Notes under the pieces: model-generated
Seen by the model: only the letters and a program-made list of their open reading frames with translations
Database searches by the model: none
What the model was told of the DNA's origin: nothing
Assembly: GCA_026874595.1 (NCBI GenBank)
Contig: CM049308.1
Span: 90,647,624 to 90,711,623 of the forward strand
Reading direction: 5' to 3'
Length of the DNA stretch: 64,000 nucleotides
Source: Sipunculus nudus
Taxonomy: Eukaryota > Annelida > Sipuncula > Golfingiida > Sipunculidae
Program-made: the position numbers and the translations under genes
Part shown: in pieces, positions 2,415-56,377 of the stretch
Numbering within the stretch: position 1 is the stretch's first letter
Layout of the letters: the number at the start of each line of letters is the position of its first letter

Positions 2415-2424
2415 TTTATTTATT
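2415..2424 (-). promoter_or_regulatory. Candidate poly(A) signals for claudin-like gene A
   Basis: Two overlapping AATAAA hexamers read on the minus strand (TTTATT on plus), about 290 bases past the stop codon of gene A. The position is reasonable for a 3' UTR end. They lie in a T-rich stretch where such hexamers also arise by chance. Confidence 0.35.
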
Positions 2425-2715
2425 TAATCTGGTACATGTTGGAATATCGTTTAAATGCTTAAAACTGACTCTTATAAAATAACATAGTTAAATACTGTAT
2501 GAAAGGCCTTTGTTTTTGCATAAAATCTTCATATGATACTGATATATCAGTTCCATATAAACACACAAAATCATAGAACTACATTTACAGTCACTATGTA
2601 GATGAACAGATTCTAAGTACGCTTAATCATATAATATTTATAATGACACCGTTGATGTAGATTGGAAAGCTTTGCCAGGTTTTATCCAGACGATGGCACC
2701 AGTGAGATTGTGAGA

Positions 2716-25665: not shown

Positions 25666-25789
25666 CTAGATGAGGTAAGGACTGTCTAGGGCTGAGTATC
25701 CAGTTGCGACCCCTCCCTCTTCTACACCAGCCACCTTGGTTCTTAAGATGAATCCCTCCTGCTTGTTGATGATAATGCTGTCTTCAGTG
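25666..25789 (-). CDS. GSS: GSS exon 12 (last)
   Basis: Encodes residues 453-492, from [18 protein letters not shown] through GGVATG to a C-terminal SPYLI and a TAG stop. It contains the conserved Arg of LRTK and the glycine/alanine-rich loop that closes over the substrate in the family; the human HADGG is VEEGG here. Acceptor TTTTTTCCAG. Confidence 0.95.
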
Positions 25790-28700
25790 CTGGAAAAAAT
25801 TAATCAAATACATTTCACGACTGCCTATAAATCATATTAATAACACTTCATACTTTGACAAAACAAGATCATGTATGCATGGCCTAATTTCAGGTTTCAA
25901 ATGAGATTTGACCAAGACTTCTCTATTTATTATATGATAGAAGGTTCTAAGGTTGACAGATACAATTACTGCGCTGTCTGGCTGTCCAGGTACTCAAAGT
26001 TTCTGTCAGATGATCAAGCTAATTAAAAGACAAAGCCATACCTCATTCCATTAAAAATAAAGAGCAGACTGTAATTAAGAACATTAAAATTAAAATCAGA
26101 CTGAACAAATTGAGAAAGACTACTAAAATTAGGAAACAAATTGTGCAACACCCTACTAAAATATGGAAACCAATGTGGAAACAACTCACTAAAATTAAGG
26201 AACAAATTTGGACACTAAAAATAAAGGAATATATTGTGATTTATCCAATTGAAGTTAAAGAACAGATTGAGACTCACCAAAGCCTACTAGAATTAACGTT
26301 ATGGTGAATTAACAGATGGTGACTCACCCCACTAGAATGCCAAATACTCCCAGCTCACTGACCATGGTGCTGAAAACTTCTTGTTCTCCAGAACGCACAG
26401 CATGGTTGTGTAAAGGGGTTGGATATATTCTGTCCATTAATATATATGCTGAGCGTTCTGAGGTGTCTTTGATTTTTCCAAGTAATTCCCTGATATCATC
26501 TCCAAATGTATTATTCCCTGAAATATAAGAATTCTAAGTTTTATTTAATTACCTACTATCTGAAATATATAACTATTAATTATCCATCATGCAATGTCCA
26601 TTAACTTAATTATTGTCCATGAAGATTCATAATCTATAACTTATGTTCATAGGTAACCGTTCAACAACTCACAGTGTTCCTGAACTGGTAACCATTCAAC
26701 AACCTACACTTTTCCTGACCTGGTAACCATTCAACAACTTATCCTGTTCCTGACCTGGTAACAATTCAACAACTTACACTGTATCTAACCTAGTAACCAT
26801 TCAAAAACCTACCTCCTCCCTCTCTCTGGGGTTTCAAGACATAGTGTTCTGGATGGACCATGGCTTCTGCAATATGTTTGTCTCCATCTTCACCCTGCAA
26901 TGATATGCTCCTTTGTTTACCTAAACAACTGTATCTAATGTTGATGTAGAAACTAAATGACAATCGATACTCTGCTTTTAGTTTGCTTTGAATGGGAAAG
27001 TGTGGCACATGGCCCATGACACTCAGCTGAATTTGGGAAACAGGCAATGTTATCATGATTATTAAATTATTTATGTTATGATTTAATGCAAAATATTTTC
27101 AAAGAACCTTGAGTAGTTGGCAGAATTACTTTCAAATTGTTCTCTCAGAATTGATCATAGTCGCCCCAAACAGATTGCAGTGACCTTATTTTGGGCTTCC
27201 AGGAAGAATTTACATGGAATTCCCTGGATCAAACCTGATGAGTTCCCCTTGTTAAACTGTTAAATTCATGCTCATATGACTTCCAGGGTGCTCAAATCAT
27301 GTTCTTTAACATAGTTTTCATTCTAGAATACAGGTCACTGTGACCAACTTTTATGTATCTAAGGAGATTTCCCAAGGGTCTCCCAGGATGTTTTGTTAGA
27401 GGGCCTGATTATAGGTAATCAGGCTATAATCCCAATTAATTGCATGTGTGTTACAGAGTTAAGCCAATCTGTGTGCAAGTTATTTATGGTATTCTCTCTG
27501 ACTTGCATCTTTGCAGTAATAAAGTTGTTGTGTAACCAGCTATCTTGCCCATGTTTCATGCATCACAGCATGGTGTCAGAAGCTAACTGGCAAGCAAATG
27601 AGCAGCAGTGATCAAACAGAGACGCTTTACCACATAATTGGGGTTTTTACATCAGGACTTGTTGAGATACAGAGAGCCTTACAAGATCCGGATCTACTTA
27701 GATCTGCACAAACTCAACAATTCTATTAAATGCAATCACTAACACATTCCAGCAGTGGAAGAGATGGCTTCAAGAATGAAGAATGCTAAAATATTCTCTG
27801 TGGTGGATGCTAAATAGGACCCATGGATTTCTGTAAGTCCTTCCCACTGAGCCCTCTGGAAAGCTTACCACTTTCTGTAGTGTGTATACTGCTGTATGTT
27901 TAATTCCTCAACTTCTATACTGTGTATTTTGCTGTATATTTAATACCTGAACTTCTGTACTTTGTATATCGTGGTATGTTTAAGCCCTCAAATTATGTAG
28001 TGTGTATACTATTGTTCTTTAATTGCTCAAATTTTATATTGTGTTTAGTGCTGTATGTTTAACTCCTCAACTTCTGTATTGTGTATTCTGCTGTATGTTT
28101 AACTCATCAACTTCTGTACCTTGTATACTACTGTATATGTAAATCAATCCTCACCTTATCAAGTGTATACTGTCCTGCAAATGTGTTTCTGATTCTTTGC
28201 ACCGCCTCTGGATCATCCGGGAGGAACTTTTCTACTGCTCCTTCATTAGCTAGCATTTGTTGTACTTTTTTCGTCCCTGCCAGGTGGTAGTGGATGCTGG
28301 GACATTTAATTGCACATGACCTCTCCATCATCAGACGAGATGCCCATTCCTGTTGGGTTAAGATGTACTGATCATTCACAAAATAATTCAAAACTAATCA
28401 TGTTTGCTTAAACATTTATAAGGGTAGGTTCTGTGGTTGGCTCTGCCCACTGAAAGAAGATCAAAGTATCCATAATAAGAATTGCAAATGAAGGTCACTA
28501 AGGTTTATGTGATCAACATGGTTTGTGTGTTTGTTTGTTTGTTTGTCCAGGTAATATCTCTGATAGTTCTCAATTTATTTGAATGAAATCCTGTTGAAGT
28601 GTGGGCGTTGGGCCAAAAATCAATGGCTAACTTTTGAGATGGATTTGTAATCTTTAAATACAGATCTGGATCTTAATACCATCATGTTCACAGCTTTTTG

Positions 28701-31700
28701 TTTGCTATCTTGATTGTTTCTTCATATAAAAATCTCCAAAGATATATACTATATTTATTAAACCTTTCAAGAGCATGAGTGGAGTAATGGCAATAATGCA
28801 ATATGTATAAAATGGTTGTTGACTTGAGTAGTTTACTGTACTCATGATACATAAACCACTGTCCCTGTCATGCATTTAAAGGAAAACAAGGTTTATCAGA
28901 TGGTGACAGCTGGCACAATAACATGGTCTTGGTTGAGAAATCTGAATATGTAATGACACAAAAAACTTTATTAAACTCTATGATTTCATGTGAGGTAATG
29001 CTTGGCTGCCTAGGTACCAGTAAGTCAGGACATGGTTTCATGCAAGGTCATGCATGGCTGCCTAGATACCAGTATGCAAGGACATGGTTTCATGCAAGGT
29101 CATGCATGGCTGCCTAGATACCAGTATGTCAGGACATGGTTTCATGTGAGGTCATGCATGGCTGCCTAGATACCATTATGTCAGGACATGGTTTCATGCA
29201 AGGTCATGCATGGCTGCCCAGATACCAGTATGTCAGGACATGGTATTCATGTGAGGTCATGCATGCCTGCCTAGATACCAGTATGTCAGGACATGGTTTC
29301 ATGTGAGGTAATGCTTAGCTGCCTAAGTACCAGTTTGTCAGGACATGGTTTCATGTGAGGTCACGCTTGGCTGCCTAGGTACCAGTATGTCAGGACATGG
29401 TTTCATGTGAGGTAATGCTTGGCTGCCTAGGAACCAGTATGTCAGGACATGGTTTCATGTGAGGTAATGCTTGGCTGCCTAGATACCAGTATGTCAGGAC
29501 ATGGTTTCATGCAAGTCATGCATGGCTGCCTAGGTACCAGTATGTCAGGACATGGTTTCATGCAAGTCATGCATGGCTGCCTAGGTACCAGTATGTCAGG
29601 ACATGGTTTCACGTGAGATCATGCATGGCTGCATTCTTAGGTACCAGTATGTCAGAAAAAATTGGTTTCATGCATGGTCATGCATGCCTGCCTAGGTACC
29701 AGTAGGTCAGGGCATGGTTTCATGTGAGGTCATGCATGGCTGCCTTAGTACCAGTATGTCAGGACATGGTTTCATGTGAGGTAATGCTTGGCTGCCTAGG
29801 TACCAGTATGTCAGGACATGGTTTCATGCAAGGTCATGCATGCTTGCCTCGGTACCAGTAGGTCAGGGCATGGTTTCATGTGAGGTCATGCATGGCTGCC
29901 TAAGGACCAGCATGTCAGGACAGGGTTTCATGCAAGTCATGTATGGCTGCCTAGGTACCAGTATGTCAGGACCTGGTTTCATGTGAGGTCATGCATGGCT
30001 GCCTAGGTACCAGTAGGTCAGGGCATGGTTCATGTGAGGTCATGCATGGCTGCATTCCAAGGTACCAGTTGGTCAGGACATGGTTTCATGTGAAGTCAAG
30101 CATGGCTGCCTAGGTACCAGTATGTCAGGACATGGTTTCATGTAAGGTCATGCATGGCTGCCTAGATACCAGTAGGTCAGGACATGGTTTCATGCAAGTC
30201 ATGCATGGCTGCCTAGGTACCAGTCATTCAGGGCCTGGTTTTATGTAAGGTCATGCATGGCTGCCTAGGTACCAGTATGTCAGGACATGGTTTCATGCGA
30301 GGTCATGCATGCCTGTCTAGGTACCAGTATGTTAGGGCATGGTTTCATGCGAGGTCATGCATGCCTGTCTAGGTACCAGTATGTCAGGGCATGGTTTCAT
30401 GTGAGGTCATGCATGCCTGCCTAGGTAGCAGTATGTCAGGGTATATGGTTTCATGTGAGGTCATGCATGGCTGCCTAGATACCAGTATGTCAGGACATGG
30501 TTTCATGTGAGGTCATGCATGGCTGCCTAGATACCAGTATGTCAGGACATGGTTTCATGTGAGGTCATGCATGGCTGCCTAGGTACCAGTATGTCAGGAC
30601 ATGGTTTCATGGGAGGTCATGCATGGTTGCCTAGGTACCAGTAGGTCAGGGCATGGTTTCATGTGAGGTCATGCATGGCTGCATTCCAAGGTACCAGTTG
30701 GTCAGGACATGGTTTCATGTGAAGTCAAGCATGGCTGCCTAGGTACCAGTATGTCAGGACATGGTTTCATGTGAGGTCATGCATGGCTGCCTAGATACCA
30801 GTAGGTCAGGACATGGTTTCATGCAAGTCATGCATCGCTGCCTAGGTACCAGTATGTCAGGACATGGTTTCATGTGAGGTCAAGCATGGCTACCTAGGTA
30901 CCATTATGTCAGGACATGGTTTCATGTGAGGTCAAGCATGGCTGCCTAGGTACCAGTAGGTCAGAATATGGTTTCGGGTGAGGTCAAGCATGGCTGCCTA
31001 GGTACCAGTAGGTCAGGGCATGGTTTCATGTGAGGTCATGCATGGCTGCCTAGGTACCAGTATGTCAGGACATGGTTTCATGTGAGTTCAAGCATGGCTG
31101 CCTAGGTACCAGTATGTCAGGACATGGTTTCATGTGAGGTCATGCATGGCTGGCTAGATACCAGTATGTCAGGGCATGGTTTCATAGGTAGGTCTAACTT
31201 TTTCAAAACATGCTCTTTTTACAGATGTCCAGATGACTGTCGGGCCGGATGACAACATAGATCATGACTATAGCTCAGATGACTTTTTGTCATCTCAGCA
31301 AAAAACTAACCAATATTCAGTGTCAATTTTTCTATAAATATTTATTTTACCTTATTAATGTCTTTTCTTTATCAAACACATAAGCAGATGCAAATGTGGT
31401 AATACTTTAATATTTAAGAAGAAAATAAAGAAAATGTTCTCAAAATATAGCTGCTTGTGATTTGTGATCAGGAAATTATAACTTTAAAATTTTAGAAAAA
31501 TATAACCACAGAAATACAGACACCAGTGAAAACCTCTATGGAAGAGTTGGTAAACTGCAGAAAAAAATTCCGGAAACTGTAGAAGAAATCCAAAAATGTG
31601 GAAAAAATCCACTAAAAAGTAAAGAAACTCTGGATGAAATCTGCAGATTTAGGATTTAAGACTTTTTCTCAAGAAATTCTAATTCTTGGGAAAAAGTTGC

Positions 31701-34700
31701 AGATTCCATGGAAAAGCAATAGCCAGGATTCTATTATGCAAATTATATATTTTATTGGCCAATATAACAACCTGTAATGTCTACTGTCTTGTCTGTGTAA
31801 TCTGTGTGACCTACCTTTTCTGATTTGTAGGACATGGGTGTGTATCCTGTTCTCATGTAGACTACAGCAACTTCAAGGCCATCACTGAGAAAAAGAAGAA
31901 AAACCAAATATAACCTCTCCATAAAGACAATAAAAAATGAACTTAACTCAAAGTAATCATAATTTCAAGTAAATCTGAAGGAAATGCAGATGAAAAGACT
32001 TGTCTAGTGCATCTATAGAGCACAGTTAAATTCATAAATAAACATTAGGGCACTAAAATTACTGGGTACTCATGGTCCCATTTTTACCACAATGGGTCAA
32101 CAACAGTGAAATTTTGCAAATACAAGTGACCTGTGGGTCATGACGCTCAGCCGACTGACATGTTTATAATATGTCCTTGCACAGACAACTAATTAAGATA
32201 ATGTAGGTGGCATCATAGTTCATGCATATTAGCTTAAGTTCATCAAGACCCATAAGCACCACAAATCTGATGACAATCCAACCAGCCTTTTATGAGGAAT
32301 CTGGCAATTTGTGTGTTTTTTGCATTATTTCCGGGGTTCTCATAAATACCCCAGAATCCTGAGAATATAGGTCACTGTGACCCAATTTCAGGTTTCTGGG
32401 GAGAACTTTTGAGGAACTCTCAGGATGTCAAGTTAGAAGATTTTGGGCCAAAAGGTTATGATTTGTGCCCTACTTTGGTATCAAATTTTCAATTATTCTG
32501 AGGGGTGCTTATAAGCCCCACAGCTCAGAAAATATGGGTAACAGAGACCCAAGTTCATGTTTCCAAGGAAACTTTTCATAGACCTCCCTGGATGTCAAGT
32601 TTCAAGTTTCTAGGTCCAATGGTTACAATTTGTGCCCTGTAAACAGACAACCGCATCTCTGAAGGTCTAAAAATTATAGAAAAAAAAATGTGTTAAAATT
32701 TAAAAAAAAATAAAGGTGGTGCCACCAGTTTGCAAGAACTGATGGAACACTCCATGATGAATATGCATTCACAGAATCAGGGTGATCAATGCGATAGTTG
32801 TTCAGATACTGGAGCTTTTGTATCAAATTTTTAGTTATTCTGGGGGGGGGGGGGTACTATGAGCCCCATAGCTCGGACAATATGGGTGACAGAGACCTAA
32901 TTTCAGGTTTCCAAGGAGACTCTCATGGGCCTCTCAGCATGTAAAGAAAGAAGATTCTAGGTCTAGTGGTTACGATTTGTGCCCTGTTAACAGATGACGG
33001 CATCTTTTAAGGTCTTAAAATAGAGGGAAAAAAATCATAAAAAATAGAAAAAATACAGGTGGCGCCACAAGTCTGCAGAAACTGATGAAACACTTCATGA
33101 TCAATATCCATGCAAAGATTCATGGTGATCAATGCATTAGTTGTTCAGACACTTGAGCTTTTTTATCAAATTTTTTGGTAATTGGGGGGGGGGGGGGGTA
33201 CTTTGAGCCCATATTTCGGACAATAAGGTTGACAGAGACCTAATTTCAGTTTCCAAGGAGACTTTTCATGGGCATCCCAGCATGTAAAGAAAGAAGATTC
33301 CAGGTCTAGGGGTTACGGTTTGTGCCCTGTTAACAGATGACGGCATCTTTTAAGGTCTCAAAAATATAGAAAAAAATTGTACAAAATTGAAAAAATACAG
33401 GTGGCCCACCAGTCTGCAGAAACTGATGAAACACTCCATGATCAATATCCATGCACAGAATCATGGTGATCAATGCATTAGTTGTTCATGTTCAGATAGT
33501 TGAGCTTTTGTATCACAATTTTCATTATTCTGGGAAGTACTTCGGAGCCCCATAGCTTATAGAATTTGGGTAACAGAGACCTAATTCAAGGTTTCCAAGG
33601 ATATTTTTCATGACCCTCTCTGGATGTCAAGTAAGAAGATTCCAGGTCCAGCAGTTACGTTTAGTGCCCTATTAACAGATGACAGCATCTTTTTCATTAT
33701 TCTTGGGGGGTACTTCAGAGCCCCATAGATTAAGAATATGCGTAACAGAGACATAATTCAAGGTTTCCAAGGACATTTTTCATGGCCCTTTCTGGATGTT
33801 AAGTGAGAATATTTCAACTCCAGCGGTAACGTTTAGTGCCCTTTAAACAGATGACGGTATCTTTTAAGGTCTCAAAAATAGAGAAAAAATCGTAAAAAAA
33901 TGAAAAAATACAGGTGGCACCACAAGTCTGCAGAAACTGATGAAACACTTCATGATCAATATCCAAGCACTAAATCATGGTGATCAATGCATTAGTTGTT
34001 CAGATATTTGAGCTTTTGTATCAAATTTTTCATTATTCTGGAGGGTACTTTGGAGACCCATAGCTTGTTTTAAGGAGATTTTTCATGGTCCTCTCTGGAT
34101 GTAAAGTTAGAAGATTCCAGGTCTAAGGTTATGATTTGTGCCTTGTTAATGGACAGATGGCCGGATGGCAGGACGGATGACAGACAAAGAGTGATTGCTA
34201 TAGCTGAGATGACTTACAGTCAGATGAGCTAATAAGAAATATATTTGAAGCACAGGTAGTGTTGCTTTTCCAGAAATTCATGACAAGGCTAAAAGACAGT
34301 TTGAATGTATAAGCACATAATTCAACTGATGATTCAATGAAAGTTCCAGTTCAGCTATTTGCATCAACAAGTTTTAAATTTATGAAGCACAAGATCATTA
34401 TATGCTCTATATATTTATATATAATAATAATCAGAAGTAATATGGAAAAACCTTTATTTTCATATCTATTGTCAACTGACCAAGTTAGCTTGGTATTCAT
34501 TGGCAGACAGAGTGGCTATGTTGCCTGTAGCCTGCATTTTTTGTGGTAAAATATTTACAACCTTCACTATACCTAATAAAATCCTAAGCTTACATACAGG
34601 TCTGTTTTCCCATGTTTATTCTATTGTGTGTCAGTTCTCCTTACTTCCTACTTGAAGATCATACTTACATCTCAAGCAGCTTGTTACTGGTTAAAAAAGC

Positions 34701-37700
34701 TCGTTCATTTAGATCCTTGAATGTTCGTCTTATGACCTTGACCCCTTTATGTGTTTCAAGGATTGCATATTCCAGCAGCCTCTGATCATAAATATTTCTT
34801 TCTTCTTCGTCAACAAGAAATAAGACTACCGCTCTGAAAAGAGATCTCACATGAATCATATACGACTAGATGAACATACATAAACCTGTGCATTAATTCT
34901 GACCAATATTAAAAACAACAAAGGAAGGAAAAACTATGACCTGTGATCTTGTCTAAGGGAGATTCCTACCCCTGAATGCAATACATACAGGAGATATGAA
35001 AACAACAGGGTCAGTGGCTGTTTAGTTACAAAAAGGTAATCCAAACTTCAACAAGAAAACCGCTAATGTGCAATATATGCCTGTGTATCTGGTGACCTAG
35101 GACCTCATTGAACCATTGAACTCTGTAACCACTTTAACCACAAGCACACATTGTGACATGCAGTAACTATTTTGTTCTTTAAAAAAGGAACATGAGATGG
35201 GGGTAATGTTTTATTTCGTGGTGACTTCTTGAAGGTAAATTTTATTTAACAGATGACAATGACCAGATCAGATCATGTCCGTGAAATTCTCAGACTTTTT
35301 CCTGAAAAGAGAGTGTGGTTAAGATTTCACTTACTCTGGATTTCCATAAGCCATCCATGCTGACACAAAACCCTCTGCTAACCCAGTAACTGCTCTGTTT
35401 TCTGGCATTTGCTGAAACAAGAGTTGAGGTATAAAATATACAGAGATAAAACAGAAGCTACTTCAATGTAAGTGTCATATAACTGCATCAGATAGCTACT
35501 GATTAATCACATCACTGTGAAATTGTGAAACTGAGAGCAACATTTCTGGCATCTGATGCACTGTAATATCCCCAGACTTTGGGCATACCACCTTTAAAAG
35601 AGGCCCCCTTCTTCTGAAGCACTGACACCACAAATTATGTGGAAACACATTGAACGTACCTAAACGTCTGTATCTGTGCAAACACCACATAAATGAATAT
35701 GTAGCTTTAATATACACATCTGAGCTTATGATGCTGTAACCACCACTTCACATTTGCTAAAAAGAGTTATTTTAATTGGAGTTTACAATAATATGTGGTT
35801 GGAAAATGGAGGCTTGTAATATTATTCTGGAAGAATTGTACTTACATCATCTGTTACTGGAATGTTGAGTTGATTAAGCACTGCCCTGAAATAAAGCAAA
35901 CTGTGCATTGATCACCAAAATCAGGGCTGCCATGGTAAATCAATGTACTGCATGAACAGTGTATGTAAATGTACACAAATAAAACTCCTACAGGTATCTG
36001 AGAGGTAAAACTGTGCACTCAAAAGTTATGCACATGTTACAGAAAACATACAAATCTACAGATGTGACCATAAAAATCAAGATGAAGGTCACTGGTTTTT
36101 AAACTTTTCTGAGAAGGTGATGAAAAGAGCTGTGTGAAATCAGAATAAAAGATATACAATACCTAAAAGTTATGGGCCAGGTCACAATGATTTTAGCTTC
36201 TAATATTATAACTAGAATGGCTTTGTTTTTTTGCACTGAAAAAACAGATATATGTGACTCCCCACATGGGGCATCCCAAAACATAAGGGGTAATTAAAAT
36301 ATGCACTTTCAGATCTCAAAACATTGATTTTAGATTTCAGAATATTTGACCTTGAAGGTCAAGGTCCCCACTTTTCAAAATCCTTCCAGATGATGGCAGA
36401 AAGAACTGGTGTGTCAAATTTGCAGAAAAAAATCTTTAGTACTTTCGAAGTCATGGGGGTCACAATAAACCTAGAATTGTGCAAATATGACCTTGAAGAG
36501 GTCAAGGTCAAGGTCACCAGTACCTGAAATGTACTGAGAACTCAATTAAAACAACTTGTGTCAAGTGTGAGGGAAAAATCTGCAATACTTCAAAAGTTAT
36601 TGTGGTCACTATAACTCTGCTGATTTGACCTTGAAGATCCTAGTCAAGGTCACAAGTTTTCAAACTAGCACAAGCACCTGGAAGGAACAATTTGTGTACC
36701 AAATTGAGGAGACAATGTGAAGCCCCTCAAAAGTAATGGGGTTCACAAATCAGCAGATTTGGCCTTGAAGGTGAAGGTCAATGTCATCAGATATGGAACT
36801 CATCTAAGATTTTGGTAGAATTAATGAGTGTTTTAAATTTGGAGGAAAATATCCAGCTGTTCAAAAGTTATCACATTTACAAGATAATAACTATAATTAG
36901 GCTGATTTGGTTTCAGCTTTCCATGGAAATTTAACTTAGACCTCCATTGATGTACAGTTAGAAGGTTAAACTGATATGATTTATGCCCTGTTAATTTATG
37001 GACATATAAACGGACCCAGATAAAAAGGGACAAAGGGTGGTTGCAATTGCTCAGAAAACTTACAGTCAGCTGAGCTATAAATAACAATCCTGGAGATTCT
37101 GTTCAATTTACTCTTTTTAAAAAAAATAGTACATGACTATAAAAATTAAAAATTAAATACACATTTTATATTGATATTATACTCAAAAACTTACACAAGA
37201 AGGAAGTAAAATCATAACTTTTGCCACAAACCTAACACATCGTAAAATTTTCAAAGATGGCCCGTTATGTTTATACTACAACAGGGAAACCTATCAGGTA
37301 AATTTAACTCAATTAGAGTTCTTAGATGAGGATGTTATTTTCACTATTATATTTCCATAATGACGACATCACCTTGGTGATGTTATTATCTCACTCCTGG
37401 TCTTGACTGTCCAAAATGTATCTAAAATGTTTTGCTGAATTAAAATAAAATTCTAGTTCTCTACATAAGTACTACCAATCTGTCTAATAATTTTAACACT
37501 TGTACCTTTTCCATGGCTCAATCACCCACAAAATTCCTTTGAAATTATGTACCCTTGAACAAGTTGATTGTAATTTACAGTAACTCCCGCCTTTGCTTAT
37601 CAGCGCCATCTTGAGACCATTTAGTGATATACATAATGTTTGAGTAAGGCATTATAACTGTTAATTCCTTTGTATATTCTTATACATTTGAGTGGATTGC

Positions 37701-40700
37701 CAACAGGAATACATAAAGCTTCACTACATTTAGTTGAAATATGATTAAAATTAATTTTTAATTGAAAGATAGATATCTTAAACTTCTAAATTGTTCAAAG
37801 TTTGACTAGATAGCAATTGTGGGAGTTACTGTAAATAACTATGATCTTGTTCAAAGGCACCCAATTCATTGAAAACTTCCACTGATACAGCATGGGTGAA
37901 TAAGCACAAACTTCAGCCATCTTCATGATATGGGTTATTCTACAAATTAAACTACCGCTCTCATGAGTCAACTTCAACCATAAACCTACTTACCTATGTA
38001 ATAATGAAAGTTGACAACTTAAACCACCAAAACTGGATGCCATGGTGTTAAACTCTATTTGTCGGACATTCAGACATGACACATCCACCTTCGTTTCATT
38101 CATCTGTTGAGGTGATAAGTGGCAGTCAAACATGTAGTCAGACCTGTTCAATCCCAGGCTGATTGGCTGTTATAAAAAAAGTAAAATTAAAATCTATCAT
38201 TCTATTTTAACAAATTTGGTCCCTTCAACTTTAATTGCAATAATCATGAAATGCTTATGTGTAACAAAAACAAAACATTATGAGCCCTATATCAATATTT
38301 GATTCAAACTTAGGGACATTTTAACTTAGGCCATTTGATTCAAATGTAAGCCAAACTTTGGCAAATTTTTCAAATATTATTTATATTATGTTTTTCTTTG
38401 TGTTTCTGCCAAATTTCAGTTGAACTTCTGTGTTAAATGTACAGAAATTATCTTCTGCAATAGTAACCAAAATGACCACAGAACGTCATTTTCTATACCC
38501 CTAAAACAGGCTAATTTTGGTGACAATTTTTTTCCCTATGTGTGAATTCCTACCACTAATATACACATATATATGTTTGTGTGTGTGTGTGCTTCACCTG
38601 TGCCACCCCTTCTTGTCTGACTGTCTCATAGATCTCCCACATGTGTCTGGTGAAGTCGTCAACTTCTATGGTACTGTGTAAGAAGATAAAAAAGAATGAG
38701 GTTCATTCAGTTGAGAAATGTTTAGTGCATCATTATTCTTTAAGAAAAGATTAAAAAACATGGGCCGAAGGACCAAAAGCTCAACAGTGATTTTCCCCAT
38801 AAGATATATACTGAAAAAATTCTCAGTGTATATTTTTAGAAAATAATAGAACCTCACAGCTTGTAACCATGACGTGTTCCAATCCACATAAAAAGAGGCC
38901 TATAAAGACTCTGTCACACTGAATGCTGCCCTACACCATGCTGCGCTGTAGAAAATGCTGACTACATGCAAATACACTGGGGTGTCCACACCAAACGCCT
39001 CTATGCACAGGGCTGTGCAGCATGGCAAAGCAATGCTGAAAAAATTTCAACTTTCTCTGCTTTGCACCAAAAATTACGTTTTCAGTCTTTGATTCAAAAT
39101 CAAAGAATTTTAAATCTGACAACTGCCCATCCAGAATGATAAACTATACTTTTAAATTTTACAACTCAACAAATCCTGAAATACAACTGTACTTTTTCAA
39201 TTTACAACTACAAAAATAGTGGTTAACTGCATGTTGGAATATACCTGATTTTTGTATTTCATTCAAGGAACCTCAAGGAACTTAAATACAAATGCTAAAC
39301 CTGCAGAGAATTCTTATAGAATATAGGTACTTAAGTCATACATTTCCTATAATTTTTCTTATAACATTAATATTTCAAATTTGGCAGTTTTTTCACGTTC
39401 AAAGTTAATACTTATAGGAGCAAACTTTTATAATTGCATTTCAAACATGAAAGACATGTGACAGGTCAGTAAACAAATTCAGGTATTTTTTCTTGGGCCT
39501 ACTGAAAATTTGCTACCTGCTATGATGTGTTGGTAATAACTCATTTTGTACAAAAAATCAAGTTTTTATTTAAGTTTAAAAAATTGAACATCATTGATGA
39601 GATGCAAAAACAAATTATTTTCATCAAATAGATAATTTTATAAGGTTTAAAATGATATACATTTTATAAGTTTTTCATGAAAACAAAATGACTTATTGGC
39701 ATTTTATTGAGATAAGAGTAAAAATTGAATGCAGACAATGTTGCTACCTTAAGCTGCCATTAAGTAAGAAGTTTTCAGGTAAAGCAGTTGTGCCATGTCT
39801 GACTGTCTGCTTGTTCCAAATCAAGTTTTTGGCCCAAAGCTTATAGAATACAGAGAATATTTAATATTTGGATGGGTTATTTTGTCTGGGACATCCCTCG
39901 ATGTGAACATTTATGATTTGTGCTAACATACAGACAAATGGCTTCAAGGGGAGACAACAGACAAAGGGGAATCACAAAAGCCAGCAGGTACTTTAAAACA
40001 TAATGAAAATACTTTTTATATGGCTAAAACAAGAAATGGTAGGATAGTGGTAATATTTAGATCAAGAAGAGGTGACTGCTTTACTGTTCAAATAACAGTT
40101 ATTTATAAATTACCATCAGTTGTGTTTTGAAAAGATTTATTTATTTCACAAGCATTTTACAAATAGTTATGATAACTTATGTGAGGTACTCTGCATGGCT
40201 CATATTTTTGCATTCTGGGGTCTGTAAGTGATGGAAGAAACCTACAGACTCAGAGAAACAACTACCCACTCTTAAAGTAAACCCAAGTCACCAGTGAAGA
40301 TAGTCCAGGGATTTGACAAAGTTACCTTTTTAAACAGTCCTTGAGGAAGTCATAATCATGAGCCACTCTGTGCATGAGTAAGTTAAAGTCCTGCTGGACA
40401 TCTATTGCTTCCTGGAAACATCTTCTTGGAACTGGTGATGGCAGTATAGTAAATGGGGCATGAGTAACAACGTCTCCTGATGGGTTTTCTTTTGTCCTGA
40501 TGGTAATCCCTGGGAGAAAAATATAACACTAGTATTGATGTAACACCAGTAACTTCCACATAATTTGAAGAAAATCAATATTCATGGACACTTGCAAAAA
40601 TCTAATATATTTCTGCTACAGTGAACCATCTCTAAAAACAGATTCTGTTCATAATATGTTCTTGATACCCCAAGGTATAGAATGATGATGCTCCAGGTTA

Positions 40701-42169
40701 TAAATTTATCAGCCTGCGTCTGAAATACCACCAGGAAACAGCCTGACTATATCACAGCAGGCCATCATGAGCTGCACTGTGTCCAGTGATAACAAGCGGA
40801 CAATTACTTGTAGTCAGGAACAGCTGAAATACTGCATGATGCATGTGATCTTGCTCTCATTAATAATGTTATCATTTAATTTTAGTTTATTTACAAAGAT
40901 GTGCGTTTGCAAATCTTATCACAATTAAAAGTAAAGTCCATAGTCTTTAGCCAAAGGCACAAACTCACCATGACTAAGAGTGTAGTCTTTAAGTCAAGGC
41001 ACAAACTTACCATGACTGAGAGCACAGTCTTAAGTCCAGACACAAACTTACAATGACTGAGAGGATAGTCTTAAGTCCAAGGCACAAACTTACCATGACT
41101 GAGAGGATAGTCTTTAGACCAAAGAACAAACTTACCATGACTAAGAGCATAGTTTTTAGACCAAGGCACAAATTTCTATGACTGAGAGCATAGTCTTAAT
41201 ACCAAGGTACAAACTTACTACGACTGAGAGCATAGTCTTTAGAACAAGGCACAAACTTACTATAACTGAGAGGATAGTCTTTAGACCAAAGAACAAACTT
41301 ACCATGACTAAGAGCATAGTTTTTAGACCAAGGCACAAATTTCTATGACTGAGAGCATAGTCTTAATACCAAGGTACAAACTTACTAAGACTGAGAGCAT
41401 AGTCTTTAGAACAAGGCACAAACTTACTATAACTGAGAGCAATCTTAAACCAAGGCCAAAACTTACCATGACTGAGAGCATAGTCTTTACCCTAAGGCCA
41501 AACTTACTTTGATTGAGAGCATAGTCTTTCGACCGAGACACACACTTACCATGACTGACAGTGTAGTCTTAAGACCAAGACACAAACTTACTATGATTGA
41601 GAGCACAGTCTTTAGACCAAGGCACAAACTTACTGTGATTAAGAGCAGTCCTGAACCAAGGCACAAACTTACCATGAATGAGAGCATAGTCTTCAGTCTG
41701 AGGCCAAACTTACTATGACTGAGAGCATAGTCTTTAGACCAAGGCCCAAACTTACAATGACTGACAGCATAGTGTTTAGACCAAGACACACACTTACCAT
41801 GACTGAAAGTGTAGTTTTTAGACCCAGGCACAAACTTATTTTGATTGAGAGCAGTCTTAAACCAAGGCCCAAACTGACAATGACTGAGAGCATAGTCTTT
41901 AGTCCAAGACACACACTTACCATGACTGAGAGAGTAGTCTTTAGACCAAGGCACAAACTTACTGTGACTGAGAGTATAGTCTTATCTTGAGACAAAATTA
42001 CCATGACTGAGAGCTTTTTCTATAGCCCAAAGAACAAAACTTATCCTGACTTATAGCATAGTCTTAGCTTAAGACAAAACTTACCATGACTGAAAGCGTA
42101 GTCTTTGGCCCATGGCACAATCTCCCTAAGCTTTGACTCTGGTATAGGAACACTACAGCACCCTTCCAT
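25666..42169 (-). CDS. GSS: Glutathione synthetase, 12 coding exons, 492 aa
   Basis: Joins gamma-glutamylcysteine and glycine using ATP, the second step of glutathione synthesis in the cytosol; eukaryotic enzymes are homodimers of about 474 aa with an ATP-grasp fold. Exons (minus): 42085-42169, 40326-40509, 38598-38673, 37994-38166, 35846-35885, 35335-35411, 34669-34833, 31815-31884, 28155-28367, 26813-26894, 26328-26517, 25666-25789; all junctions are GT-AG and phases agree. Recognised blocks: [10 protein letters not shown] (119-128), QIEFNT (151-156, with E153 and N155 as the expected Mg ligands), [29 protein letters not shown] (319-327), [10 protein letters not shown] (382-391, glycine-rich ATP loop, E386 expected third Mg ligand), SELGVFG, LRTK and GGVATG near the C-terminus. 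The human NTISAS stretch reads NTMASS here. Exon 4 has about 11 extra residues between DYMF and QIEFN. The gene looks intact. An acceptor three bases before the ATG implies a 5' UTR intron. Confidence 0.96.
26080..26327. repeat. Minisatellite at the 5' end of GSS intron 11
   Basis: About six degenerate units of 25-40 bp built on ACTCACNNNACTA(A/G)AAT (plus). The first full unit overlaps the exon 11 end: ACTCAC|CCCACTAGAAT spans the donor junction at 26327/26328. In transcript sense the units read ATT(C/T)TAGTGGG then GTGAGT or close variants. The array fills roughly the first 250 bases of the intron. Confidence 0.7.
26328..26517 (-). CDS. GSS: GSS exon 11
   Basis: Encodes NN of the glycine-rich ATP loop, then [11 protein letters not shown] and [11 protein letters not shown] (about residues 390-451). 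Donor GTGAGT, acceptor TATTTCAG, phase 2 at the 3' end. Confidence 0.95.
26652..26812. repeat. 35-bp minisatellite at the 5' end of GSS intron 10
   Basis: Four full 35-bp units (plus sense GGTAACCATTCAACAACTTA, then a C(A/T)CNGTTCCTGACCT end) and a fifth partial one that ends exactly at the exon 10 donor. In transcript sense every unit carries a donor-like GTAAGTTGTTGAA, GTAGGTTGTTGAA, GATAAGTTG or GTGAGTTG. The real donor is the first of these, GTAGGTTTTTGAA. Confidence 0.85.
26813..26894 (-). CDS. GSS: GSS exon 10
   Basis: Encodes [20 protein letters not shown] followed by KPQREGG (residues 362-388), the ATP-binding lysine and Mg-binding glutamate segment. Donor GTAGGT, 82 nt, phase 1 at the 3' end. 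Confidence 0.95.
26895..27865. other. GSS intron 9, unique part
   Basis: AT-rich intron sequence. A stretch near 27120-27400 resembles decayed ~335-bp-family or similar units (phrases such as CAGTGACCTTATTTTGGGCT and AAGGAGATTTCCCAAGGG) but is too worn to assign. No embedded gene. Confidence 0.4.
27866..28154. repeat. ~40-bp minisatellite at the 5' end of GSS intron 9
   Basis: Seven units of about 40 bp (plus: AACTTCTGTA(C/G)TGTGTATAC, TGCTGTATGTTTAACTCCTC) run up to the exon 9 donor. The exon end itself reads CCTCAC|CTTATCAAGTGTATACTG and aligns with the unit (CCTCAACTTCTGTANTGTGTATACTG), so the unit spans the exon/intron junction. The most distal unit has GCTTACCACTTTC, again donor-like. 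Confidence 0.8.
28155..28367 (-). CDS. GSS: GSS exon 9
   Basis: Encodes residues 291-361, with [27 protein letters not shown] and [18 protein letters not shown], the best conserved stretch for recognising the gene. 213 nt, phase 0 at both ends; donor GTGAGG. Confidence 0.97.
28981..31187. repeat. 52-bp minisatellite, about 42 copies, GSS intron 8
   Basis: Consensus unit CATGGTTTCATGTGAGGTCA, TGCATGGCTGCCTAGGTACC, AGTATGTCAGGA, about 52 bp, repeated for 2.2 kb with scattered substitutions, one- to five-base indels and variant blocks (TGTGAGG/TGCAAG; GTATGTCAGG/GTAGGTCAGG). Some multi-unit blocks recur, for example those containing GCATTCCAAGGTACCAGTTG near 30050 and 30690, so longer segments were duplicated inside the array. 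It is not adjacent to either splice site of the intron. Confidence 0.95.
31188..31305. repeat. Dispersed-element terminus next to the 52-bp array
   Basis: GGTAGGTCTAACTTTTTCAA followed by CAGATGTCC, a GACTATAGCTCAGATGAC segment and a worn terminus GTCATCTCAGCAAAAAA, placing the 52-bp array inside or beside a member of the R2-type dispersed family. Confidence 0.55.
31815..31884 (-). CDS. GSS: GSS exon 8
   Basis: Encodes [20 protein letters not shown] (from residue 268). YMRTGY corresponds to the YFRDGY of the human enzyme, whose Arg contacts the substrate. 70 nt; donor GTAGGT. Confidence 0.93.
32122..34232. repeat. ~340-bp tandem repeat array, copy B, GSS intron 7
   Basis: Has the same palindromic leader (TGACCTGTGGGTCATGACGC) and the same unit as 12576-14190, with cores near 32716, 33057, 33400 and 33911 and an extra partial unit near 33700. 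It finishes with GACAAAGAGTGATTGCTATA and a worn hairpin GTCAGATGAGCTAA. G tracts in the units vary between 3 and about 14 G. Confidence 0.85.
34669..34833 (-). CDS. GSS: GSS exon 7
   Basis: Encodes about residues 213-266, [18 protein letters not shown], then [18 protein letters not shown]. The ERNIYDQR block matches the substrate-contacting ERNIFDQR of vertebrates. 165 nt; donor GTAAGT. Confidence 0.95.
35335..35411 (-). CDS. GSS: GSS exon 6
   Basis: Encodes [20 protein letters not shown] followed by AYGNP (residues 187-211), matching the PSKGLALGIAKAWELYGSP stretch of the human protein. 77 nt; donor GTAAGT. Confidence 0.92.
35846..35885 (-). CDS. GSS: GSS exon 5 (40-nt micro-exon)
   Basis: Encodes [13 protein letters not shown] (residues 174-186), less conserved. 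Support comes from the phase match (phase 2 in, phase 0 out), the TTATTTCAG acceptor, the GTAAGT donor and the need for this segment between exons 4 and 6. Confidence 0.85.
36060..36910. repeat. AGGTCA-rich ~140-bp units in GSS intron 4
   Basis: Units recur near 36067, 36349, 36490, 36629 and 36762, each with (T)GACCTTGAAGNT(C/G)AAGGTCA followed by a TTTTCAAA-type sequence and CAAAAGTTATGG. They belong to the family arrayed at 60990-61720. The nearby terminus at 37010-37080 (GTCAGCTGAGCTATAA) is the common dispersed-element end. Confidence 0.75.
37994..38166 (-). CDS. GSS: GSS exon 4
   Basis: Encodes [13 protein letters not shown] and [14 protein letters not shown] (residues 116-172). Between these blocks there are about 22 residues where the human protein has about 11, so this lineage has a longer surface loop. 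173 nt; donor GTAAGT. Confidence 0.95.
38598..38673 (-). CDS. GSS: GSS exon 3
   Basis: Encodes [20 protein letters not shown], then EGVAQ (residues 91-115), matching the [20 protein letters not shown] block of human GSS. Its donor GTGAAG is followed at once by a CA/TG-rich microsatellite near 38575-38590. Confidence 0.93.
38674..40325. other. GSS intron 2
   Basis: AT-rich. A stretch at about 38915-39020 (GTCACACTGAATGCTGCC ... CTGTGCAGCATGGC) has facing GC-rich pieces and could be a transposon scrap, but no clean ends were found. No gene seen. Confidence 0.4.
40326..40509 (-). CDS. GSS: GSS exon 2
   Basis: Encodes [20 protein letters not shown], then [20 protein letters not shown] (residues 29-89), matching VVSYAPFTLFPS and VQMDFNLLVDAVS of human GSS. 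184 nt; acceptor TTCTCCCAG, donor GTAACT. Confidence 0.95.
40935..42084. repeat. 42-bp minisatellite derived from the end of GSS exon 1
   Basis: About 27 degenerate units (plus: CTTACCATGACTGAGAGCAT, AGTCTTTAGACCAAGGCACAAA) run from inside intron 1 up to the exon 1 donor. In transcript sense the unit is the last ~30 bases of exon 1 (coding W-A-K-D-Y-A-F-S-H) plus the donor and the first bases of the intron. At least nine intron copies keep CTTACCATGA, i.e. TCATG|GTAAG, near 41006, 41089, 41131, 41298, 41462, 41545, 41668, 41792 and 41926. A four-unit block (about 41105-41270) is repeated next to itself (about 41270-41440). Confidence 0.93.
42085..42169 (-). CDS. GSS: GSS exon 1 (first coding exon)
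   Basis: Encodes [18 protein letters not shown], then [10 protein letters not shown] (residues 1-28). The N-terminal residues are not conserved, but the second half aligns with LEELARQAVDRALAEG of human GSS. The ATG is preceded by AAT and an acceptor TTACATTTCAG, so an upstream non-coding exon is expected. Donor GTAAGT. Confidence 0.88.
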
Positions 42170-44036
42170 ATTCTGAAATGTAAATATTACACAATCAACC
42201 TTCTGCAAATGATACATGGCTGAATAGATATCACCAATTAAGTTAAGTTATACAACTCTGTAAGACTGTATTTACACATGTTCACCCGGGATACCTGCCA
42301 TGTCTCCTTTGGTCGTAACTGTGACATCTCAATCACGTGAGTGAAGCAAAAAGAGACAACAGACAAAAAATGGTTTCACAATGTTAACACAAAAACTATG
42401 ACATTACTTCCTGTCACTCTCCAGGCATATTCCTTAAAGTAGAGAAAACTATCAGTCTGTCTTGAACGTCTGGCATCACATGGGATAAAACTGCTCCCAA
42501 GGCATAAGGAGAAGCATCACACTGTAACTTGATAGGCGTGTTGACGTCATAGTTTACAAGTTCTCCAGCCATTAAAAACAAATTCTTGCTCTCTGGAAAT
42601 GCTTTCTCGCTCCTATCTATCCGATTCCAGACTACATGTTTATGTGTCAGTTCATTCAGAGGTTGCAGTATTGAAGCTATATTTGGCAAGAATTTCGTAT
42701 AATATCTGAGTAATCCTAGGTAAGACTGCAACTTGGCTACATTTTCAGGTCTACATGCCTCTAAAAGAGCTTGCACTTTCTGTGGTGTAGTTCTCAGTCC
42801 TTCTTTATCTACAGTGTGGCTCAGATATGTCACACTTCTCTTTAAGAATGAACATTCCTCTTTCTTTAATTTCACACTACAGTGATCAAACCTTCCTAGT
42901 ACTTCCTCTAACCTAGTACTAGGTTTTCTTCAGCTGAGCCTGATGCGATAAGTACATCATCAAGATAGCAAACAATTCTGTCAAGACCTTGTAGTATTTG
43001 GTACATCAATTTCTGGAAAATGCTTGGCGCTGAGTTGACCCCGTTACTCAAGCGTTCATACGAGTCAAGTCCACGTGCTGTGTTTATCACAAGATACCTT
43101 TTTGAAACCTCATCAAGCTGTCGCTGATGATACGCATGTCTGAAGTTTTTTTTTGTGAAGAATTTTCCACCAGACAATGTAGCAAACAGATCCTGTGCTG
43201 TAGGCAATGGGTATGTGTCAATGGATATGAAACGGTTAATAGTCACTTTATAATCACCACAGATGTGTACATTGCCTCCTTCTTTAGGCATATCGACTGT
43301 AGGCACTGGCTTATCTGATTTTTCAGTTTTCTTTATTACTCCTTCAAAGTATTATCGATCAAGCTCTCTCTCAACTGCTGGCTTTAGAGTATAAGGAACA
43401 CAGGCCTGGTCTCCCTAAACACTGGACTAACACCATCTGGTACAGTGATATGAGCCTTGAAGTATTTAATTTTTCCCATTTTCTCATCAAATACTCCATT
43501 AGACTTGGTAAGCACCTTGTCACAGTTGGGGCCAGGTACTCATACCTGTACCTGAACCTGAACCTGTACCTAGGCACACAATTCAGAGTACCTGTACCTG
43601 GCTGCCATGCATAGGAAGTACTTTGTTCCTGTACCTGGAACTAAAAGTACCTGTACCTGGTGAAAGATACTCCAGGTGCAAATGTGATAGTTGAAATGAA
43701 CACCAGGCTTGGGTCAATTTCCAAAGTTGTCACCCCTGTCATTGCTGTTAGTTACCTATCTCAGGCAGGGGTGATCACAAAGCATTCATCTGGCTACCTT
43801 TGTAGCTAGCTGAGCCAGCAAGCTGGTCAACCTCCTGCCCCTAAACAGAAAGTTCATTGTGACATTAATTTTTATATAAAATATATTCATGTTAAGCCTT
43901 GATTTATTATATTCCCTTTATTTGGAAGATAAGTCAGTGATTTGGTTTATTAAATTATTTACATTTTAATTATAATGCTTTAGTATTTATGTAGGTATGT
44001 GTATATATATATATTTATACATACATTATATATACA

Positions 44037-53020: not shown

Positions 53021-56000
53021 CAGCGGCGTACCTGGCCTCATTGCCGCCCGGGGCGGTCTTAGAAATTGCCGCCCCTCTAACAAAACATTACAAACCTGGA
53101 TAACATTTTGAAACATATCGTTTCAAATGTCCTTGCTACAGGCTTGTATTTGACAAAAACGCAATTATATGGATTCACTGGCAGGGAATTCTTCCGCCAC
53201 ATATTAAAGAGCAGACATCTCTTTGCTAATGTAAATCAAAAGATCGATCGAAGCTCAAACAAGTATATTTCATTATGAAGTGAACAGAAAGGAATAAAAC
53301 GAATAACTTGTAACTATTAACAGATTACACTGCAGGATACACATATAATGTGGGAAATTGATCTTTCATCATTCATGTAAACACGATTCATGATTACTTT
53401 AAACTCAACTTGGGGAAAAAACTTTATTTGGTGAGTGTTATTCTATTCTCGACGCATACAAATACTTTGTCACATCTATAATTCCACCTCTTGTTATCGC
53501 ATATGACAGCAGGTACACCTAATAGAGCTGTTGAGATATGCATGATACTGCTGCATGCAAGTCATTTAGTATTTACTAAAACAGCGTAATTCATGAGTTA
53601 AGCATATATATGTAGGCATGGCATGTTTATTTTTTTACATAAAAAAACCCAATGTTTGGATAAACTGACTTTGTTTAATTAAAATATCCTCAAGAATAAA
53701 ACATACTTTTATTCAAGGCTACATCAAATCATTTAGAATTATAGTGATTATGCACTTTGCGAGGTTTTATTTATAAACTAATGACTATTTGTTATTCAAT
53801 AAAGTAGTTAAATAAATTTCAAGTAATGATATAATTTAAATATATGTTATAATTTAATTTGTAATGATTTTTCACAATATACAACAATTGTCTGTAGGTA
53901 GTGGATAATGAAACTGTTAATAACAAAATTAACAGACAGGTAAATATATCTTTAATTTAAGTTTTGAACCCTAAAAGTTAAAACTGATACCTGATACGTA
54001 TATTGAACATGTGGCTAAGCGGCATAATTCCTATATAGGTCTGGGTGTTTATTGGGTTTTTTTTTCACGTTACCTAAAAGATCATACAGGTCATATTGGT
54101 TAATCAAAAGACACAGGCATTTAGGTAGTACTCATTATATACACGATAGTGTAAACGTCTGTATTTTAACGAGACTGATGTTAGAGTATTAAGAATCATG
54201 GAAAAAGGGCATTTCAGGTTGTTTCAGACTGTTCAAATATCCTGGAATTTCGGGAAATTAAGGGTTCAAGATTGGAAATTCTTAATACTTTCCAAGGAAA
54301 GAGCAACACAATTCGTCAAAATAGTTTTGACAATATGAACGACAGACACCCCACCCCCACTACCTGGTGCCATTGGTCTTCTGGCAGGGTTTTTCCCTGG
54401 TGATTATCAGATGCTGCTAGGGATTTCTGTAAACGACGACCGCCCTGAAATGCAGGCTTTTTGCATGACTGGTCAGTTTATCGGTGGCGTTCTGACATTG
54501 CAAGACCACAGATCTAACAAAGAATAACTACAGATATGTATTTCTTGCCTTAGATTTAGAGATCGTTCTCAAATAATTTTGTAGGTTCCACCGCCACATT
54601 TTTAATATCTGAAATTCTTGAAAAGGGACAAAAAGGCCAAATTTGAACTTTTTGAGGAACCCCTTCTGCCACTGATTATATTAAATCCCAGAAATGCCCC
54701 CCCCCCCCCCCAAAAAAAAAAGTGTGCAAAACGTTCGCTAATCATTTGGTAGGTTCCACTGTCCAGTTTATAATCCCTGGAATCTTGAACATGGGACAAA
54801 AAGGCCACATTTGTAATTTTTGTGGAACTCCTTATGCCACTGATAAAACTAAATCCCAGAAATGCCCCCCCCCCCAAAAAAAAAAAAAAGGGTGCAGAAT
54901 GTTCGCTAATAAATTGGTAGGTTCCACTGTCCAATTTATAATCCCTGGAATCTTGAACATGAGACAAAAAGGCCATATTTGTAATTTTTGTTGAACTCTG
55001 TAGGCCACTGATTTAACTTAATCCCAGAAATGCCCCCCCCCCCCCCCAAAAAAAAAAGTGTGCAAATCGTTTGCTTATCATTTGGTAAGTTCTACTGTCC
55101 AGTTTATAATCCCTGGAATACTTGAACATGGGACAAAAAGGCCACATTTGTAATTTTTTGTTTAACTCCTTATGCCACTGATTAAACTAAATCCCAGAAA
55201 TGCCGCCCCCCCCCCCCAAAAAAAAAGGGTGCAGAATGTTCGCTAATAAATTGGTAGGTTCCACTGTCCAGTTTATAATCCCTGGAATCTTGAAAATGAG
55301 ACAAAAAGGCCATATTTGTAATTTTTGTTGAACTCCGTAGGCCACTGATTTAACTAAATCCGAGAAATGCCCCCCCCCCCCCCAAAAAAAAGTGTGCAAA
55401 TCGTTTGCTTATCATTTGGTAAGTTCTACTGTCCAGTTTATAATCCCTGGAATACTTGAACATGGAACAAAAAGGCCAAATTTGTAATTTTTGTGGAATT
55501 CCTTAAGCCACTGATGAAACTAAATCCCAGAAATGCCGCCCCTAAAAATGTGCAAATCGTTCGCTAATCATTTGGTAGGTTCAAATGTCCAGTTTATAAT
55601 CCCTGGAATACTATAACATTGGACAAAAAGGTCAAATTTGTACTTTTTGTGGAACTCCTTATGGCACTGATTAAACTTAATCCCAGAAATGCCCCCCCCC
55701 AAAAAAAAGGGTGCAGAATGTTCGCTAATAAATTGGTAGGTTCCACTGTCCAGTTTATAATCCCTGGAATCTTGAACATGAGACAAAAAGGCCATATTTG
55801 TAATTTTTGTTTAACTCCGTAGGCCACTGATTAAACTAAATCCCAGAAATCCCCCCCCCCCCCCCAAAAAAAAGTGTGCAAATCGTTAGCTTATCATTTG
55901 GTAAGTTCTACTGTCCAGTTTATAATCCCTGGAATACTTGAACATGGGACAAAAAGGCCAAATTTGTAATTTTTGTGGAATTCCTTAAGCCACTGATGAA

Positions 56001-56377
56001 ACTAAATCCCAGAAATGCCGCCCCTAAAAATGTGCAAATCGTTCGCTAATCATTTGGTAGGTTCAAATGTCCAGTTTATAATCCCTGGAATACTATAACA
56101 TTGGACAAAAAGGTCAAATTTGTACTTTTTGTGGAACTCCTTATGCCACTGATTAAACTTAATCCCAGAAATGCCCCCCCCCCCCCAAAAAAAAAAAATG
56201 TGCAAATTGTTCGCTTATCATTTGGTAGGTTCCGCTGTCCAGTTTTTAATCCCTGGAATACTTGACATGAGACAAATAGATCGAATTTGTACTTTTTGTG
56301 GAACTCCTTGTGCCACTTATTATACTTATTCCCCGAAATGCCGTCCCCCACCCCCCCACCCCTTAGGTACGCCACTG
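53021..56377. mobile_element. Non-autonomous hAT-like DNA transposon (~3.36 kb)
   Basis: The left end is CAGCGGCGTACCTGG. The right end read inward is CAGTGGCGTACCTAAGG, so the terminal inverted repeats match at 12 of the first 13 bases. Both flanks carry the same 8-bp target-site duplication CATTTCCT (53013-53020 and 56378-56385). An 8-bp duplication and CAG(T/G)GGCG-type ends point to the hAT superfamily. The inside has no transposase frame: 53060-54580 is non-coding AT-rich DNA and 54580-56340 is a satellite array. The subterminal TGCCGCCCCT occurs near the left end and again inside array units. Confidence 0.8.
54580..56340. repeat. ~168-bp satellite, 11 units, inside the hAT-like element
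   Basis: Each unit carries GGTTCCACTGTCCAGTTTAT, AATCCCTGGAATCTTGAACA, GACAAAAAGGCCA, TTTTTGTGGAACTCC and AAATCCCAGAAATGCC, then a C run (up to about 17) joined to an A run. Units start near 54581, 54751, 54919, 55085, 55257, 55423, 55578, 55738, 55906, 56060 and 56228. The block 55423-55900 is repeated almost unchanged from 55906 on, a three-unit higher-order repeat of about 483 bp. Confidence 0.92.

Follow-up and report, generated by a model that had tools for sequence, protein, structure and literature searches.

Exon/intron border minisatellites in the glutathione synthetase gene of Sipunculus nudus and at other donors and acceptors of its genome

Introduction

Minisatellite-like tandem duplications of exon/intron borders, called 'mirages', have been described in amphioxus, where the cited passages of the reports place them in Adh3, the globins BflGb6 and BflGb9, TnC and PGBD5, at both 5′ and 3′ borders, with units of 10-160 bp, with AG/GT in many but not all copies and with regular splicing undisturbed (PMC3087553, PMC3902484). 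Here we describe arrays at the introns of the glutathione synthetase gene (GSS) of the annelid Sipunculus nudus, which lies in a stretch of 64,000 nucleotides (positions 90,647,624 to 90,711,623 of contig CM049308.1, assembly GCA_026874595.1; hereafter the window), and at other exons of the same genome. A literature search, which was not exhaustive and may have missed reports in subscription journals, found no border arrays outside lancelets, and an equally non-exhaustive search found no genome-wide rate for them. We know of no earlier rates that compare donors, acceptors and background positions for such arrays.

The arrays of S. nudus share a border anatomy that recurs at many loci, and they occur at donors and at acceptors about as frequently as array edges occur elsewhere in introns. 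In our judgement, border-spanning minisatellites are probably the product of ordinary minisatellite duplication that splicing tolerates, rather than repeats with a demonstrated attraction to splice sites.

Results

The array that defines the anatomy occupies intron 1 of GSS, a gene on the minus strand of the window (25666..42169; positions are those of the window throughout). Array coordinates were taken from Tandem Repeats Finder (TRF), which reports arrays in introns 1, 8, 9, 10 and 11 and elsewhere in the window. The border minisatellite of intron 1 (40939..42084, minus strand; TRF 40939-42120) starts at the donor (42084) and comprises 28 units in register with it, each about 42 bp long except for the final, partial one. 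Its unit consists of GTAAGTTTG plus a copy of the 3′ end of exon 1, about 33 bp long. The copied exon end (42085..42123, minus strand) aligns over 39 nt with a copy 125 nt inside the intron. This similarity does not depend on the donor: the final 40 bases of exon 1 alone score 27 against the intron, compared with 9.6±1.4 for shuffles, none of 1000 of which scored as high, and a 24-nt exon-only test gave a score of 18 against a shuffle maximum of 11.

The original prediction had placed arrays at the donors of introns 1, 9, 10 and 11 and had the unit of each contain the junction or the donor; intron 1 is the sole unambiguous case among the four. The array of intron 10 (26652..26812, minus strand; TRF 26652-26812) starts exactly at the donor and comprises about five units of 35 bp in register, which begin GTAGGT, GTAAGT, ATAAGT, GTAGGT and GTGAGT, so that GT is kept in four of the five. 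A border that includes seven exon bases gave p=0.024, the exon alone gave p=0.25, and no repetition of the exon was seen past about seven bases. In intron 9, seven units of about 40 bp (27873..28154, minus strand) can be lined up so that they are in phase with the donor (28154), the edge reported by TRF (27873-28136) being 18 nt inside it. Free alignment of this border gave no signal, and the in-register similarity to the exon is equalled by 20-44 of the approximately 1440 positions of the coding sequence, depending on length. As judged from these alignments, an exonic part of the unit is not demonstrable in intron 9 or intron 10. The candidate in intron 11 (26120..26327, minus strand) consists of a degenerate border copy, a single copy of 11 exon bases and the donor at donor+34 (p=0.006 by local alignment), plus a 33-bp array (26120-26212) at a distance of 115 nt from the donor (26327), and would qualify as a border array only marginally. 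The arrays at the borders are unrelated in sequence to one another, as predicted. The prediction was also right about the remaining introns: alignment revealed no border copy in introns 2-8, and the large array of intron 8 (28980..31185, minus strand; 52 bp x 42), which provides an internal comparison, begins about 630 nt inside the intron, away from the donor (31814).

When a fixed rule based on TRF edges was applied to the whole gene, three of 11 donors (introns 1, 9 and 10) and none of 11 acceptors carried an array; intron 11 fails this rule. Array edges fall near 3.6% of random positions in the GSS introns, and the probability of at least three of 11 donors is 0.0002-0.006 at assumed per-donor rates of 1-3.6%. 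The original prediction had judged chance placement unlikely. This holds for a single named gene, for which three of 11 is unusual, but not for a gene singled out from many thousands because it is the most striking, for which the count is unremarkable.

To extend the comparison, the 1.43-Gb assembly was searched for donors repeated in tandem. With GGTAAGT in triplicate, the first 100 places listed comprised 16 distinct arrays; pairs of CAGGTAAGT led to 22 arrays among the first 100 places listed (four of them already found with GGTAAGT), and pairs of AAGGTGAGT to nine arrays among the matches listed. We read 43 distinct arrays with their flanks, which extended over 10 kb in the first 16 arrays and over about 0.35 kb in the remainder. 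By eye, 24 of these 43 motif-found arrays have a first donor at which an exon-like open frame terminates; the other 19 are non-exonic or unclassifiable, several since the stretch began inside the array. A strict exon-only test, in which the last 24 bases of the exon had to match the following DNA better than in all 300 shuffles (preserving single-base content only), was passed by 17 of the 43, while seven of the 24 by-eye cases failed it (L004, L010, L011, L068, L069, L076 and L081). Among 26 arrays tested, GSS intron 1 and 18 further arrays passed. Most of the duplicated units read measure about 27-60 bp and one measures 117 bp, and one array (L001) reaches about 61 copies. With the reversed motif, none of seven arrays read ends an exon at a donor; these controls were picked as visible arrays from at least 25 reversed-motif places and mostly had a single flank. 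The results support the view that border-spanning arrays are real, mutually unrelated in sequence and recurrent in the genome.

Several of the exons concerned belong to recognizable protein families. Pfam identifies AWS in L003 (2.9e-19; histone methyltransferase), Glyco_hydro_47 in L012 (1.1e-7), the MAS20 import receptor in L071 (5e-12) and SIS in L067 (1.6e-5), together with two matches below the curated cut-off, ABC_membrane in L064 (3.4e-5; ABC transporter) and Ank in L082 (0.002). We take L067 to be GFAT-like and L071 to be TOM20-like, which is finer than the Pfam names; L001, L007 and L011, which have no Pfam match, are presumably ATG7-like, SFI1-like and FAM120-like, respectively.

Numbers of motif matches were rejected as proof of an excess. 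Three-copy matches of GGTAAGT number 3278, compared with 3393 for the reversed motif, and such counts were not used because a few giant arrays drive them; pairs of AAGGTGAGT number 301 against 16 for the reversed word, which is equally no proof because a functional motif is being set against its reverse. One reversed-motif array (L085, C1:49302520-49302870) is of a different kind, a 24-bp in-frame tandem repeat within a long open frame, in which CRFVNGQL is repeated.

The recurrence also bears on whether the GSS coincidence reflects chance alone, in a genome rich in repeats, with nothing general behind it. Arrays are indeed dense, at 0.27 per kb in the window and 0.22 per kb in the SLC6 stretches described below, about 12% of the window consists of arrays whose units measure 15-200 bp, and introns 9-11 have a weak exonic part or none. 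Set against this, the unit of intron 1 holds exon sequence and the identical anatomy passes the strict test at 18 other loci. Since recurrence at 18 loci implies that a general class exists, chance can account for no more than the clustering within GSS, and we consider it very unlikely that chance is the whole explanation.

We also evaluated the proposal, made in the original prediction, that selection retains spare donors. Extra copies might make splicing more efficient or protect it against mutation. Of the 27 full units of intron 1, 21 have an exact GTAAGT, and nine decoy donors there equal or exceed the score of the real donor, a situation without parallel in the other GSS introns (as scored with a splice-site matrix of approximate frequencies). 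The modal unit length also looked biased towards multiples of three: 14 of the first 20 arrays, counted by hand, had such a unit, as did 18 of the 52 TRF arrays used for comparison (Fisher p=0.009). Conservation tells otherwise. The donor hexamer of intron 1, the only array examined in this respect, is conserved at 0.80 compared with 0.84 for the other columns and ranks 37 of 42 windows, giving no signal of preferential conservation of donor copies; in intron 9 the donor has been lost in six later copies (GTTGAT, GTTGAG, TTTGAG etc.). The other donor-rich arrays came from searching for intact donors. The apparent frame bias is not robust, since the lag to the best-matching copy is a multiple of three in nine of 20 arrays (binomial P=0.19; p=0.43 versus the 52), a test in which the best copy lay several units distant in three rows, and in one of the six arrays read later. 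Selection on the reading frame is therefore not supported by the lag test or the later arrays, and retention of spare donors appears highly improbable to us.

Because the arrays above were found through their donors, border rates were measured in two families sampled blind to repeats, the SLC6 transporters (PF00209) and the dynein heavy chains (PF12774), in compact stretches. Splice sites were placed by paralogue alignment and a matrix of approximate frequencies, so that some are wrong; a strict-motif placement, which retained only 14 donors, was replaced. We kept 52 distinct donors from 57 SLC6 exon hits and 56 from 86 dynein hits, several of which were in the wrong frame, and alignment scores were also obtained for 49 SLC6 and 55 dynein donor rows. 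A border copy, or an array starting from the border, is present at two of 108 donors (SLC6 0/52, dynein 2/56). One is a 42-bp duplication with an alignment score of 23 (L054); the other is a 22-bp TRF array 2 nt from a weakly scoring and weakly placed donor, with an exon part of the unit not demonstrated (L045).

Acceptors are affected at three of 136. At the acceptor of L045 an array of 56 bp x 18 has an alignment score of 33, and its printed units hold the acceptor and the exon start. Two SLC6 acceptors on contig C16 carry copies of the 5′ part of the exon and the acceptor upstream of the true exon, in L035 as 117 bp x 3 (counted by eye, as the script overlooked the true acceptor) and in L032 as a single degraded copy with a score of 22. 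Weaker acceptor scores of 14-17 were obtained for L034, L019, L050, L030 and L039, and the TRF rule selects four of 136 acceptors (L045, L019, L036 and L050).

In the same stretches, 1.8% of intron positions drawn at random have a TRF array edge nearby. Measured against this background, the TRF rule finds one donor where 1.9 are expected and four acceptors where 2.4 are expected, so that neither border stands out. Array edges were preferred to alignment scores for this comparison because the score background includes positions deep inside arrays; in the intron background, 4.4% and 6.2% of positions score at least 22, exceeding the donors. The special status that the original prediction gave to donors is thus not borne out in these families. 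Its expectation of a general phenomenon holds for the recurrence of border arrays (24/43 by eye, 17/43 by the strict test) but not for an excess at donors.

A matched-motif comparison gave a somewhat different picture. CAGGTAAGT occurs 15,332 times and its reverse 12,946 times, counts that include copies within arrays. Among the matches listed for each word in the same 258 Mb, pairs of CAGGTAAGT mark 22 arrays, 10 of them at donors by eye, compared with 12 control places, some of which are single pairs.

At the dynein locus L045 (G000:C3:1459200-1463200) the exon is flanked on both sides by arrays (about 2304-3320 and 3462-3965), 18 units of 56 bp ending at the acceptor and 23 units of 22 bp running from about the donor. 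In another dynein heavy chain gene (G000:C6:39308505-39316367), four successive exons all match one stretch of the AAA_6 profile, positions of about 82-119; they are likely duplicated and perhaps mutually exclusive. Long intronless SNF-family frames were seen on small contigs among C61-C133, which are possibly bacterial.

The GSS model itself joins 12 coding exons on the minus strand (42169-42085, 40509-40326, 38673-38598, 38166-37994, 35885-35846, 35411-35335, 34833-34669, 31884-31815, 28349-28155, 26894-26813, 26517-26328 and 25789-25666) into a single frame of 486 aa that ends in a stop and matches human glutathione synthetase (PDB 2hgs) with an E of 4e-129 over residues 12-485. Retrotransposon-type frames, which we take to be reverse-transcriptase-like, lie just upstream of exon 1 on the minus strand (42417-43351), and TRF reports a large array of 168 bp x 11 at 54562-56358.

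Discussion

The border arrays can be accommodated by the ordinary turnover of minisatellites. Short tandem duplication seeds would land anywhere in a minisatellite-rich genome through slippage or unequal exchange. Seeds within exons would harm the protein, while those that straddle a border need not. When a duplication spans the end of an exon together with the donor, or an acceptor together with the exon start that follows, the outer copy would go on coding and keep a splice site of its own, and further copies would fall in the intron and be spliced out. Such a change would be nearly neutral, because the outer copy still serves and splicing removes the rest. The array could then expand, homogenize and decay as any minisatellite does, and introns would lengthen by copies of the adjoining exon end and splice site.

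Some of our results weigh against this account. With arrays at three of 11 donors, GSS is an outlier. The matched 9-mer estimate gives a donor/control ratio of 4.5, 3.1 or 2.2 if 2386, 3500 or 5000 true CAGGTAAGT donors are assumed, with confidence intervals from 1.75-11.4 down to 0.84-5.5, and so allows that a moderate donor excess of 2- to 4.5-fold may exist, contrary to a uniform origin. No Pfam match was obtained for 8/10, 7/10 and 4/10 exon peptides in three batches; as most peptides in two of the three batches lack one, the evidence for many of the exons is their open frame. In addition, we infer from sequence alone that the exon-proximal splice site is the one used.

The first two of these points, together with the absence of arrays from the 11 GSS acceptors, would fit donors that are hot spots, at which R-loops, stalled splicing or transcription-coupled breaks promote border duplication above chance. 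In introns chosen regardless of repeats, however, the rates are 2/108 for donors and 3/136 for acceptors against a background of 1.8%, so that acceptors are affected as often as donors, and the matched ratio depends on the assumed number of donors, one confidence bound reaching 0.8. We therefore regard donor hot spots as unlikely. A broader version, in which the border is a real duplication hot spot a few-fold above background, introns grow from their ends and the spliceosome routinely picks the outermost of up to dozens of near-identical sites, is doubtful but deserves mention. Tolerated, ordinary duplication remains the account that we favour.

Border-spanning minisatellites, which we found reported for lancelets only, recur in at least one other animal genome, where both donors and acceptors are affected. 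They represent natural experiments on how the spliceosome chooses when tandem splice sites are nearly identical, and through them the neighbouring exon becomes a local and traceable source of intron growth.

Among the related systems, the CeRep25B repeat of Caenorhabditis elegans is likewise an intronic minisatellite with a possible link to splicing. In the passages cited, however, it is a single named repeat that is enriched close to alternative splicing regions, and they give no account of units derived from the adjoining exon (PMC4039745). Intron gain by tandem genomic duplication, as far as it is outlined in the cited source, similarly involves a tandem duplication that carries splice-site-like sequence (PMC4974935), whereas the arrays described here sit at one end of existing introns. 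The amphioxus mirages are closer. Within what the cited passages describe (PMC3087553, PMC3902484), the two share short-unit arrays at borders (GSS introns 1, 9 and 10), a unit with exon and intron sequence, splice signals kept in many copies (21/27 in intron 1, though not in intron 9) and an occurrence at 3′ borders (L032, L035 and L045, with 0/11 at GSS acceptors). They differ in that the S. nudus arrays were found in a 1.43-Gb genome in dozens of cases, one with about 61 copies (L001). To judge by their sequence anatomy, the S. nudus border arrays are of the amphioxus mirage kind.

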